From NCBI RefSeq assembly GCF_000242635.2, contig NC_017770.1:4724669-4788668 (forward strand): a DNA stretch of 64,000 nt, given 5' to 3'. Under the pieces are notes generated by a model. That model worked only from the letters and a program-made list of their open reading frames with translations, was not told the origin of the DNA and did not search any database. A program made the translations under genes and the position numbers. This document shows, in pieces, positions 39,332 through 49,637 of the stretch; position 1 is the first letter of the stretch, and the number at the start of each line of letters is the position of its first letter. Source of the DNA: Solitalea canadensis DSM 3403 (GTDB lineage: Bacteria > Bacteroidota > Bacteroidia > Sphingobacteriales > Sphingobacteriaceae).

Positions 39332-39359
39332 GTACAATTCCGAATGCTCGGAATTGTAC
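39332..39359 (-). terminator. Hairpin terminator downstream of secA
   Basis: GTACAATTCCGA (39332-39343) is complementary to 39348-39359 around a 4-base loop. On the minus strand it is followed by a moderately T-rich stretch. Confidence 0.6.
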
Positions 39360-46950: not shown

Positions 46951-48444
46951 ATGAAGGTACATCATATTAGTACAGCTCCCATTACATTGGAGCTGATTAG
47001 CTCAATTGTGGAGAATGGACAACAATTGGCACTTTCTCCTGAATCTGCTCAAAAGATTACGGCGTGTTTTAATTATTTGCACGAGAAAATTAAGGAGAGC
47101 ACTGAGCCTATATATGGCATTAATACAGGTTTTGGATCATTACAAAATGTTTCTGTTGATAATGATAAACTGGAAACCTTACAAAGCAATTTGTTGAAAT
47201 CACATGCTTGTGGTACCGGGGATGAGGTTCCACAGGAGATCGTGAAATTAATGTTGCTATTGAAAATCCAATCGTTAAGTTATGGTCATTCTGGTGTGCA
47301 ACTTTCAACAGTTGAACGTCTAATTGATTTTTATAATCATGATGTATTGCCTGTAGTTTATACACAGGGCTCATTAGGTGCTTCCGGGGATTTAGCGCCA
47401 CTTGCTCATCTTTCATTGCCATTATTAGGTTTAGGTGAAGTTTATGTAGAAGGAAAGAAAAAAGCTTCTTCGGCTATGCTTCAGCAATTCGGCTGGGAAC
47501 CGTTGCATATGAAAGCAAAAGAAGGTTTAGCATTGATCAATGGAACTCAGTTTATGAGTGCTTATGGTGTTCATTGTTTGTTGCTTTCTAAGAAACTTTC
47601 ACGTGTTGCAGATGTGGTAGCGGCTACATCAATTGATGCGTTTGATTGTCGAATTGATCCTTTTAATGAACTGATTCACCAAATCCGTCCGCATAAAGGC
47701 CAGTTGGAAACAGCCAAATTTATTGCTGAGATTTTGGAGGGAAGTGAATTAATCAGCCAGGGCGGTAAACAGACACAAGATCCATACTCATTCCGCTGTG
47801 TGCCGCAGGTACATGGCGCATCAAAAGATGCGATTAATTATGTGGAATGGGTTTTCTTAACTGAGATCAATGCTGTAACTGACAATCCAAACGTTTTTCC
47901 AGAAGCCGATAAAATTCTTTCAGGAGGTAATTTCCATGGACAACCACTGGCATTGGCATTAGATTTCTTGTGTCTGGCATTGTCAGAACTTGGAAGTATT
48001 TCAGAAAGAAGAACATTTCAATTGATTTCAGGTTTACGCAAATTGCCTGCCTTTTTAGTGGCAAAACCAGGTTTGAATTCAGGTTTAATGATTCCTCAGT
48101 ATACAGCGGCATCAATTGCAAGTCAGAACAAACAGTTATGTACTCCTGCATCTGTAGATTCTATTGTTTCTTCAAACGGACAAGAAGATCATGTAAGTAT
48201 GGGAGCCAATGCTGCAGTTAAAGCTCATAAGGTTGTAAAAAACCTGGTTTCTATATTAGGTATTGAATGGTTGAATGCCACTCAGGCATTAGAACTGCGC
48301 AAGCCGTTGAAATCCTCACCTTTTATTGAGAAATTATTAGTGGATTTTAGAAAAGAGGTAGCATTCATTACTGAAGATCGTCAACTATCCATTGATATTG
48401 AGAAATCGAAAGAATTTATCGTTGAGCGGATTGTTATAGAATAA
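46951..48444 (+). CDS. hutH: Histidine ammonia-lyase
   Basis: A 497-residue enzyme that removes ammonia from histidine to give urocanate. The MIO prosthetic group forms from Ala144-Ser145-Gly146 in GSLGASGDLAPLAHLSLP. YGINTGFGSLQNV, ALINGTQFMSAYG, QDPYSFRCVPQVHGA and NFHGQPLALALDFL are the other family blocks. The length fits HAL. No other histidine-use gene (hutU, hutI, hutG) is next to it, so it stands alone here. It is followed by a 46-bp palindrome that doubles as terminator and operator. Confidence 0.95.
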   Translation: MKVHHISTAPITLELISSIVENGQQLALSPESAQKITACFNYLHEKIKESTEPIYGINTGFGSLQNVSVDNDKLETLQSNLLKSHACGTGDEVPQEIVKLMLLLKIQSLSYGHSGVQLSTVERLIDFYNHDVLPVVYTQGSLGASGDLAPLAHLSLPLLGLGEVYVEGKKKASSAMLQQFGWEPLHMKAKEGLALINGTQFMSAYGVHCLLLSKKLSRVADVVAATSIDAFDCRIDPFNELIHQIRPHKGQLETAKFIAEILEGSELISQGGKQTQDPYSFRCVPQVHGASKDAINYVEWVFLTEINAVTDNPNVFPEADKILSGGNFHGQPLALALDFLCLALSELGSISERRTFQLISGLRKLPAFLVAKPGLNSGLMIPQYTAASIASQNKQLCTPASVDSIVSSNGQEDHVSMGANAAVKAHKVVKNLVSILGIEWLNATQALELRKPLKSSPFIEKLLVDFRKEVAFITEDRQLSIDIEKSKEFIVERIVIE

Positions 48445-48454
48445 TCTACTTTAA

Positions 48455-48500
48455 ACAAAAAAGCGTGTTGTACAAAATTTTGTACAACACGCTTTTTTGT
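48455..48500. promoter_or_regulatory. 46-bp perfect palindrome: hutH terminator and likely YefM-YoeB operator
   Basis: Positions 48455-48477 and 48478-48500 are exact reverse complements with no spacer. The outer part (AAAAAAGCG ... CGCTTTTTT) has the look of a terminator for hutH. The inner part contains TGTACA twice, at 48469-48474 and 48481-48486, with centres 12 bp apart. TGTACA pairs at this spacing are what E. coli YefM-YoeB binds to repress its own operon. The right copy overlaps the -33 element. Confidence 0.75.
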
Positions 48501-48509
48501 TTACTTTTG
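48479..48509 (+). promoter_or_regulatory. yefM-yoeB promoter
   Basis: TTTG at 48479-48482, 19 bases, then TACTTTTG at 48502-48509: an exact -33/-7 pair for Bacteroidetes. The start codon is 20 bases beyond. The -33 element lies inside the palindromic operator. Confidence 0.65.
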
Positions 48510-48528: not shown

Positions 48529-48783
48529 ATGGAAATTACAACGTACTCATACTTCAGGCAAAACCTTAAGACATTCCTTGATAAGGTTTTATCAAGTCAT
48601 TCGCCCTTATTTGTTACGAGGAATAATGGTGAAGATGTAGTAGTTCTGTCAAAGTCTGACTATGAAAGCATGCAAGAAACTTTTTACTTGCTTAAGAGTC
48701 CAAACAATGCACTCCGACTATTAAAAGGCATAGATGAATATAATAAAGGCATGGGGCAACAGCGGGATTTAATTGAAGAATGA
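48529..48783 (+). CDS. yefM: Antitoxin of the YefM/Phd family
   Basis: An 84-residue antitoxin that binds and neutralises the YoeB toxin and represses its own operon. The N-terminal DNA-binding part reads MEITTYSYFRQNLKTFLDKV, followed by PLFVTRNNGEDVVVLSKSDYESM, the standard YefM pattern. The C-terminal tail, acidic at its end, is the toxin-binding part. A TTG two codons upstream is open but the ATG at 48529 is preferred. Its stop overlaps the toxin start by 4 bp. Confidence 0.93.
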   Translation: MEITTYSYFRQNLKTFLDKVLSSHSPLFVTRNNGEDVVVLSKSDYESMQETFYLLKSPNNALRLLKGIDEYNKGMGQQRDLIEE

Positions 48784-49034
48784 AGATTGTTTTTTTAAGT
48801 GACGCATGGGATGATTATCTGTTTTGGCAATTGACAGATAAAATAATCCTCAAAAAAATTAACAACCTGATAAAAGAAATTGAAAGACAACCTTACGATG
48901 GCAACGGAAAACCTGAACCATTAAAGCATAATTTGGCTGGTTGGAGGTCTCGTAGAATAAACCTGGAACATCGTCTTGTTTATCGGATAGACAATGATTC
49001 TATAATCGTTTTACAATGCAGATATCATTATTAA
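48780..49034 (+). CDS. yoeB: YoeB/Txe-family mRNA interferase toxin
   Basis: An 84-residue toxin of the RelE superfamily that cuts mRNA on the ribosome. The sequence follows YoeB closely: FLSDAWDDYLFWQLTDKIIL, KINNLIKEIERQPYDGNGKP, EPLKHNLAGWRSRRINLEHRLVYRI and the terminal CRYHY. The catalytic Glu, Arg, His and Tyr of the family all have candidates here (E in EIERQP, R in SRRINLEHRLVY, terminal HY). It appears intact, translated with yefM through a 4-bp overlap. Confidence 0.94.
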   Translation: MKIVFLSDAWDDYLFWQLTDKIILKKINNLIKEIERQPYDGNGKPEPLKHNLAGWRSRRINLEHRLVYRIDNDSIIVLQCRYHY

Positions 49035-49067
49035 TAAAGAAGGCTGGAATTTCCAGCCTTCTTTATT
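49033..49067. terminator. Bidirectional terminator
   Basis: Seventeen-base perfect arms (AATAAAGAAGGCTGGAA and complement) around a single central base. It overlaps the yoeB stop codon and precedes the end of the convergent gmhA. Confidence 0.85.
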
Positions 49068-49637
49068 TTATAAAACATTTCGTTCGATATAATCAATTAA
49101 GGAGTGAATGCATTTGATGTGGATCTCCTGCGCTCTATCAGCGTATGTAGAATGTGGAGCCCTGATCTCTACATCGCATTCAGCCGACATTTTTCCACCA
49201 TCTTTTCCAGTAAGTCCAATAATAGAGATTCCTTTCTCTTTGGCAACTTTAATGGCATTCAGTACATTCTCAGAATTTCCACTTGTACTTATTCCCAATA
49301 AAACATCACCTTTTTGTCCGATAGCTTCAAGATACCTTGAAAACACATAAGCATAACCGTAATCATTACCAACACAGCTCATATGTGAGGGATCAGAAAT
49401 CGAGATGGCAGCCAATGCCTTTCGGTCATTCCTGTAGCGGCCCGATAGTTCTTCAGCAAAATGCATTGCATCACACATAGAGCCTCCATTTCCACACGAA
49501 ATGATCTTTTTGCCACTTTTTAATGCATCAACCATTAATTGTCCGGCAGTCTCAAGTGCTTCAAAATTTTTATCATTAGTCAGAAACGCTGTTAAAACGT
49601 CATGCGCTTCTGAAAAGTGTTGTTTTATTTCGTTCAA
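49068..49637 (-). CDS. gmhA: Sedoheptulose 7-phosphate isomerase
   Basis: A 189-residue SIS-domain isomerase that makes D-glycero-manno-heptose 7-phosphate, the first step to ADP-heptose for LPS core. Signature blocks are [57 protein letters not shown] and the C-terminal [14 protein letters not shown]. The start is TTG; no in-frame ATG lies upstream before a stop, and the first internal ATG is too far in. An exact -7 element lies 22 bases before it. Confidence 0.93.

Follow-up and report, generated by a model that had tools for sequence, protein, structure and literature searches.

The window analysed here, a 64-kb stretch of the 5.2-Mb Solitalea canadensis genome, contains a region in which the order is hutH, a palindrome, yefM, yoeB, a hairpin and a convergent gene. 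The individual features are as follows.

46951–48444, + strand: hutH, histidine ammonia-lyase, the upstream gene (TIGR01225, 588 bits, cut-off 539; PF00221)
48452–48503, no strand: perfect 52-bp palindrome, predicted YefM-YoeB operator and hutH terminator hairpin (from its arms and fold)
48457–48462, + strand: A6 tract in the outer left arm (read from the sequence)
48469–48474, no strand: left TGTACA core (exact paired site)
48479–48482, + strand: predicted -33 box of yefM, TTTG (60 of 62 loci of this layout have TTG in the right core)
48481–48486, no strand: right TGTACA core, sharing bases with the -33 box (167 of 201 loci have a GTAC pair at 12 bp)
48493–48498, + strand: T6 tract, predicted site of hutH RNA 3' ends, also within the promoter spacer (from the sequence)
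48502–48509, + strand: -7 box TACTTTTG of the predicted yefM promoter (62 of 167 loci have TAnnTTT 16–18 bp past the right GTAC)
48529–48783, + strand: yefM antitoxin gene (PF02604, 81.9 bits, cut-off 29.8)
48780–49034, + strand: yoeB toxin gene (PF06769, 122.7 bits; TIGR02116, 113.2 bits, cut-off 51.8)
49033–49067, no strand: hairpin where yoeB and the convergent gene meet, which probably terminates both (17-nt arms, loop of 1; -23.3 kcal/mol)
49068–49637, - strand: convergent gene (called gene), which we take to resemble gmhA

The yefM and yoeB genes overlap by 4 bp and form one operon, pairing a YoeB/Txe-family toxin with a PhdYefM-family antitoxin, and matches to both protein models point to a cassette of the YefM-YoeB type II toxin-antitoxin family. 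The window YefM passes TIGR01552 and scores 84.4 against the NCBIfam equivalog model of E. coli YefM, below that model's cut-off of 121. It carries arginine at both positions 10 and 31, and R10 and R31 are described in the available text of PMC4803016 as essential for DNA binding by E. coli YefM.

The palindrome and its paired cores

The two arms of the palindrome (48452–48477 and 48478–48503) are 26 nt each and 100% complementary, with a loop of 0. An initial annotation of this DNA had reported a perfect palindrome of 46 bp; perfection was borne out, and the length is corrected here to 52 bp. The two TGTACA cores that it placed inside, 12 bp apart from start to start, are present as described. 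No other site in the 64-kb window has arms of at least 9 nt with a loop of 0, and the longest zero-loop arms in 30 first-order Markov windows were 7–10 nt, compared with the 26 nt observed. As RNA, the palindrome folds into 24 pairs around an AAUU loop (-33.1 kcal/mol, z = -10.5).

Across the 5.2-Mb genome there are two exact matches to TGTACA-N6-TGTACA, each before a yefM, and a control search for the exact pair at 11-bp spacing gave no matches in the genome. When one mismatch was allowed, the genome scan returned 11 matches per strand, equal to the reversed control, and therefore only the exact paired-core sites are informative. We also considered a dispersed repeat family; this was rejected, as the exact paired cores appear at no third site in the genome and the palindrome is therefore not a dispersed element. 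Three YoeB loci are present in the genome, and GTAC pairs at 12 bp lie upstream of all three yefM genes. Their arm extensions are 18 (the window copy), 1 and 0 pairs, so that long arms are confined to the window copy. One paralogous yefM (L001; G000:C1:2393597-2393836, - strand) has three GTAC cores in 12-bp steps, at -31, -19 and -7 from the start codon, the last of them close to that codon.

The initial annotation had called for a search of homologous operons for a conserved TGTACA pair. Our collection of yoeB-type loci drew on named genomes, represented by the best 80 of 562 relatives, and on other genomes with YoeB (3 of 4 in the genus, 209 of 399 in the family and 98 of 395 in the class), of whose matches a part was used; the match lists contributed in part, as 29 new loci plus 60 regions and as 25 loci plus 40 regions. 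The 239 loci entered were reduced by four for which no antitoxin was found (L041, L067, L112 and L236), and loci sharing their last 100 bp were merged, to give 201 distinct upstream regions. The class-wide set, which left out L215–L217 and L228 (already included) and L240 (partial, with an in-frame stop), added 37 loci with a GTAC pair and none with arms of at least 8.

A GTAC pair at exactly 12 bp was found upstream in 167 of the 201 distinct loci, and the search therefore did not refute the operator proposed in the initial annotation. A 24-bp spacing occurs in 34 of the 201 loci, and any other spacing between 5 and 30 bp in at most 5. All 167 loci with the pair encode a YefM-like antitoxin; among the 34 that lack it, 8 have a non-YefM-like antitoxin and 26 a YefM-like one (E < 1e-3), 16 of which match YefM at E < 1e-13. 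We regard the predicted operator role of the palindrome as strongly supported, and repression by YefM-YoeB at the paired cores would follow by analogy with the known family.

Several variations on this arrangement were seen. The 24-bp spacing is what three cores in a row would give, and an uncultured Enterobacterales contig (L058) has two separate, successive GTAC pairs of 12-bp spacing ahead of yefM, at -71/-59 and -51/-39. Of the 167 loci, 135 have R at residue 31 of YefM, 30 have S and 2 have N. The outer flanks of the pair read ATGTAC...GTACAT in 23 of the 30 S31 loci and are mixed in R31 loci; S31 may thus go with a changed core flank.

The position of the cores relative to the promoter also recurs. 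In the window, the -33 TTTG (48479–48482) overlaps the right core and is followed, after a 19-bp spacer, by the -7 box TACTTTTG (48502–48509), in agreement with the initial annotation, and these boxes fit the Bacteroidota primary-sigma pattern TTTG / TAnnTTTG. A TAnnTTT motif lies 16–18 bp after the right GTAC in 62 of the 167 loci (17 bp in 50, 16 bp in 11 and 18 bp in 1). The right core reads TTG in 60 of these 62 same-layout loci, and therefore the core supplies the -33 TTG. In another 50 loci the TTTG of the -7 box runs into a core (the left in 28, the right in 23, both in one), and 55 of the 167 fit neither layout.

The E. coli yefM-yoeB operator with its L and S palindromes is said to have been described by Kedzierska in 2007 and by Bailey and Hayes in 2009, and the S. 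pneumoniae operator by Chan in 2011. As presented in the available portions of PMC7730913 and PMC4803016, the E. coli operator contains two TGTACA cores 12 bp apart within the L and S palindromes, and the core and its 12-bp spacing are kept in many bacteria; in those same portions we found no mention of Bacteroidetes. The window resembles E. coli in having two TGTACA cores, 12 bp from centre to centre, over the yefM-yoeB promoter. It differs in that the E. coli L palindrome covers the -10 box (PMC7730913, in the text available), whereas the right core in the window lies over the -33 box and the arms make up the predicted terminator hairpin of the upstream gene.

Predicted terminator features and arm length

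The hairpin begins 7 bp 3' of the hutH stop codon and combines a stable stem with a T-tract, the T6 run forming the lower 3' part of the stem, with more T-rich sequence beyond. Because the T6 tract sits in the promoter spacer, hutH transcripts are predicted to end immediately ahead of the -7 box, which would leave the hairpin out of the yefM leader. The window contains 12 hairpins with arms of at least 11 nt and loops of at most 8, all 12 no more than 60 bp from a called gene's 3' end (for 49033–49067, the gene counted is the - strand gene at 49068, although yoeB also ends there); long, near-perfect hairpins are therefore the usual style of gene end in the window. One of the hairpins in the window, at 39332–39359, has arms that begin and end with GTAC, 24 bp apart, and lies 25 bp away from where a 1099-aa ORF on the - strand ends; it is probably a terminator, and a link to YefM is unlikely.

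The palindrome shares with the intrinsic (Rho-independent) terminators of convergent genes in the window a long stem and A- and T-tracts near a stop codon. Unlike those terminators, its inner stem would be the operator of the next operon and its T-tract lies in the promoter spacer of that operon. The general gene-end style lends some support to the idea that this is a hutH terminator of the common kind in which TGTACA arose by chance, with the true operator of yefM elsewhere or nonexistent. We consider this highly improbable, since the only two exact core pairs in 5.2 Mb each precede a yefM, and the spacing and promoter register agree with those of other yefM loci. While hairpins are otherwise common at gene ends, the paired cores are a special feature of this palindrome.

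The hutH gene is present in all 4 genomes of the genus, allowing a comparison of its 3' flanks. One congener (G002) has no YoeB match, and its hutH is followed by a hairpin with arms TAAACAAAAAA / TTTTTTGTTTTA and no TGTACA (-21.8 kcal/mol), beyond which the sequence resembles the gene at 49068. We read the window hairpin, relative to that of the congener, as having kept its outer stem and acquired a new inner one. In the window genome, TAAACAAAAAA occurs 51 times (both palindrome arms counted) against 33 for the reversed control. Some likeness of the two outer arms is expected because of their A-tracts, and automatic alignment of the two regions fails to match up the shared outer-arm letters. 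The other two congeners (G001 and G003) have different hairpins 3' of hutH, as read by eye.

Arm length was defined as strict complementarity outside the GTAC pair, and a simple longest-ORF rule served to identify the upstream genes. Among 61 same-layout loci, arms of at least 8 were found in 13 of the 17 with a co-directional gene ending 13–60 bp upstream, in 3 of the 15 where such a gene ends within 12 bp, and in none of the 7 where it ends beyond 60 bp or of the 22 with a divergent gene. The contrast is thus 13 of 17 against 3 of the remaining 44, and with a 62nd locus added (3 of 45) Fisher's test gives p = 1.3e-7, with phylogeny ignored. Swapping flanks among the 17 loci gave a mean of 0.94 long-arm cases and a maximum of 5 in 5000 trials, and outside this promoter layout long arms were found in 2 of 105 loci. 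When a T-tract was also required, the terminator scan returned 9 of 17 loci at 13–60 bp, 2 of 15 at up to 12 bp and none of the 7 with a gap of more than 60 bp; 2 of these last 7 have a separate terminator. Long arms are missing from 4 of the 17 loci at 13–60 bp, from 12 of the 15 within 12 bp and from the two paralogues in the window's own genome, and are therefore not required.

The arms also covary. In the 17 loci, a set not selected by arm length, both partners vary in 10 of 11 arm pairs, and 89.6% of arm cells pair, compared with 77.2% when shuffled (0 of 500 as high) and 28–49% when slid. The letters drift while pairing stays, with four pair types at one position. Covariation alone fits either an RNA hairpin or a symmetric DNA site.

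Placed on a tree, the 61 loci require at least 7 changes of the long-arm state, and the contrasts averaged 1.4 with the neighbour trait, 0.1 against it and 0.5 with no difference; only 2 independent contrasts fall on supported branches, too few to reach significance in a sign test, for which at least 6 differing contrasts are required. A single supported clade accounts for 10 of the 16 long-arm loci; the window represents a separate lineage. Few independent origins of long-arm loci are supported.

Long arms are also found behind uvrA and several other upstream genes. We asked of Mucilaginibacter-type genomes whether the arms there were inherited from an older uvrA terminator. With uvrA matched in 59 of the 61 genomes, 30 loci were examined, 25 of them without an adjacent cassette, and 1 of these 25 has a terminator by the scan. 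This makes inheritance from an older uvrA terminator unlikely there and weakens the case that uvrA needs a terminator. Behind uvrA in L293 and L303 the sequence, read by eye, encodes pieces resembling a decayed YefM (SYLLKSPAN), with no adjacent intact cassette by the motif used, and this looks like a site at which cassettes come and go.

These data bear on two alternatives. In the first, the palindrome is only an operator whose long arms extend the YefM-YoeB dyad, and hutH termination there is incidental or absent. The available text of PMC3760812 describes an extended inverted repeat around both cores in pat, the axe-txe promoter of Enterococcus faecium, so a purely DNA-level reason for such arms is possible; that text places a terminator downstream of txe and describes no role of pat as terminator of an upstream gene. 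The pneumococcal yefM-yoeB operator, as far as PMC4803016 is available, likewise holds TGTACA inside a palindrome that overlaps the -35 region, as in the window; unlike that of the window, it is an incomplete palindrome (44 bp) at a sigma-70 promoter with no terminator role described. A symmetric DNA site would also produce arm covariation, and a terminator may be dispensable behind uvrA, where 24 of 25 cassette-free loci lack one by the scan. We nevertheless judge this alternative unlikely, as long arms in the same layout occur at 0 of 22 divergent loci and 13 of 17 co-directional ones at 13–60 bp, drift of the arm letters with pairing kept is odd for a site read by its bases, and the congener hutH hairpin exists without TGTACA.

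In the second alternative, both functions are real and were never selected together, the cassette having landed beside an existing hutH terminator to give an overlap without advantage. The congener hairpin, with similar outer arms and no cassette, fits this view, as does the fact that most loci with the operator no more than 12 bp from the upstream stop do without long arms. It is nonetheless quite improbable: long arms stand behind uvrA and other genes, and with terminators at 1 of 25 cassette-free uvrA loci terminator inheritance fails to explain those arms, while arm covariation points to upkeep. The terminator reading of the palindrome is, in our assessment, a good one. The merger with the hutH terminator that the initial annotation had proposed gains support from the hutH hairpin of the cassette-free congener, the arm covariation and the link to close co-directional genes.

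A predicted fusion of operator and terminator

The explanation we favour, with a probability of roughly 0.7, is that an operator for YefM-YoeB and the intrinsic terminator of hutH are fused in the palindrome. Given the conserved cores, the arms and the neighbour link, it is very likely that operator, -33 box and terminator share one element. Some related bacteria appear to have a merger of the same kind. The earlier proposal that repression and the end of upstream transcription share one DNA element is supported, at the sequence level, by the combined evidence of cores, spacing, arms and congener comparison. Other bacteria were already known to have the TGTACA core and its 12-bp spacing; the apparent novelty is that one set of bases would form both the terminator of the upstream gene and the -33 box. 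We found no relevant report of operator-terminator fusions in the open-licence PMC literature.

At the DNA level, YefM dimers, with YoeB as co-repressor, would bind the two TGTACA cores 12 bp apart; since the -33 TTTG belongs to the right core, this would keep RNA polymerase off the yefM promoter. At the RNA level, the hutH transcript would fold into the 24-pair hairpin and be released in the T-tract at 48493–48498, before the -7 box. Such an arrangement would shield the toxin-antitoxin operon from hutH read-through in very little space. As to its history, we propose that a cassette came to an existing hutH terminator and that the operator replaced the inner stem.

A further possibility, which we put forward tentatively and think somewhat unlikely, is that the fused element couples hutH to the toxin-antitoxin operon. 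A polymerase leaving hutH would have to melt both cores before stopping in the T-tract, and so could strip off YefM-YoeB and disturb the yefM promoter; in the other direction, bound YefM-YoeB might act as a roadblock that sharpens hutH termination. If this coupling were true, cassettes of the same layout would sense how active their particular upstream gene is. Our analysis maps the positions of yefM-yoeB operators on Bacteroidota-type promoters and allows an effect of upstream transcription on a toxin-antitoxin operon to be tested for directly. It also suggests that a toxin-antitoxin cassette in a tight intergenic space may be insulated by an operator growing into a terminator.
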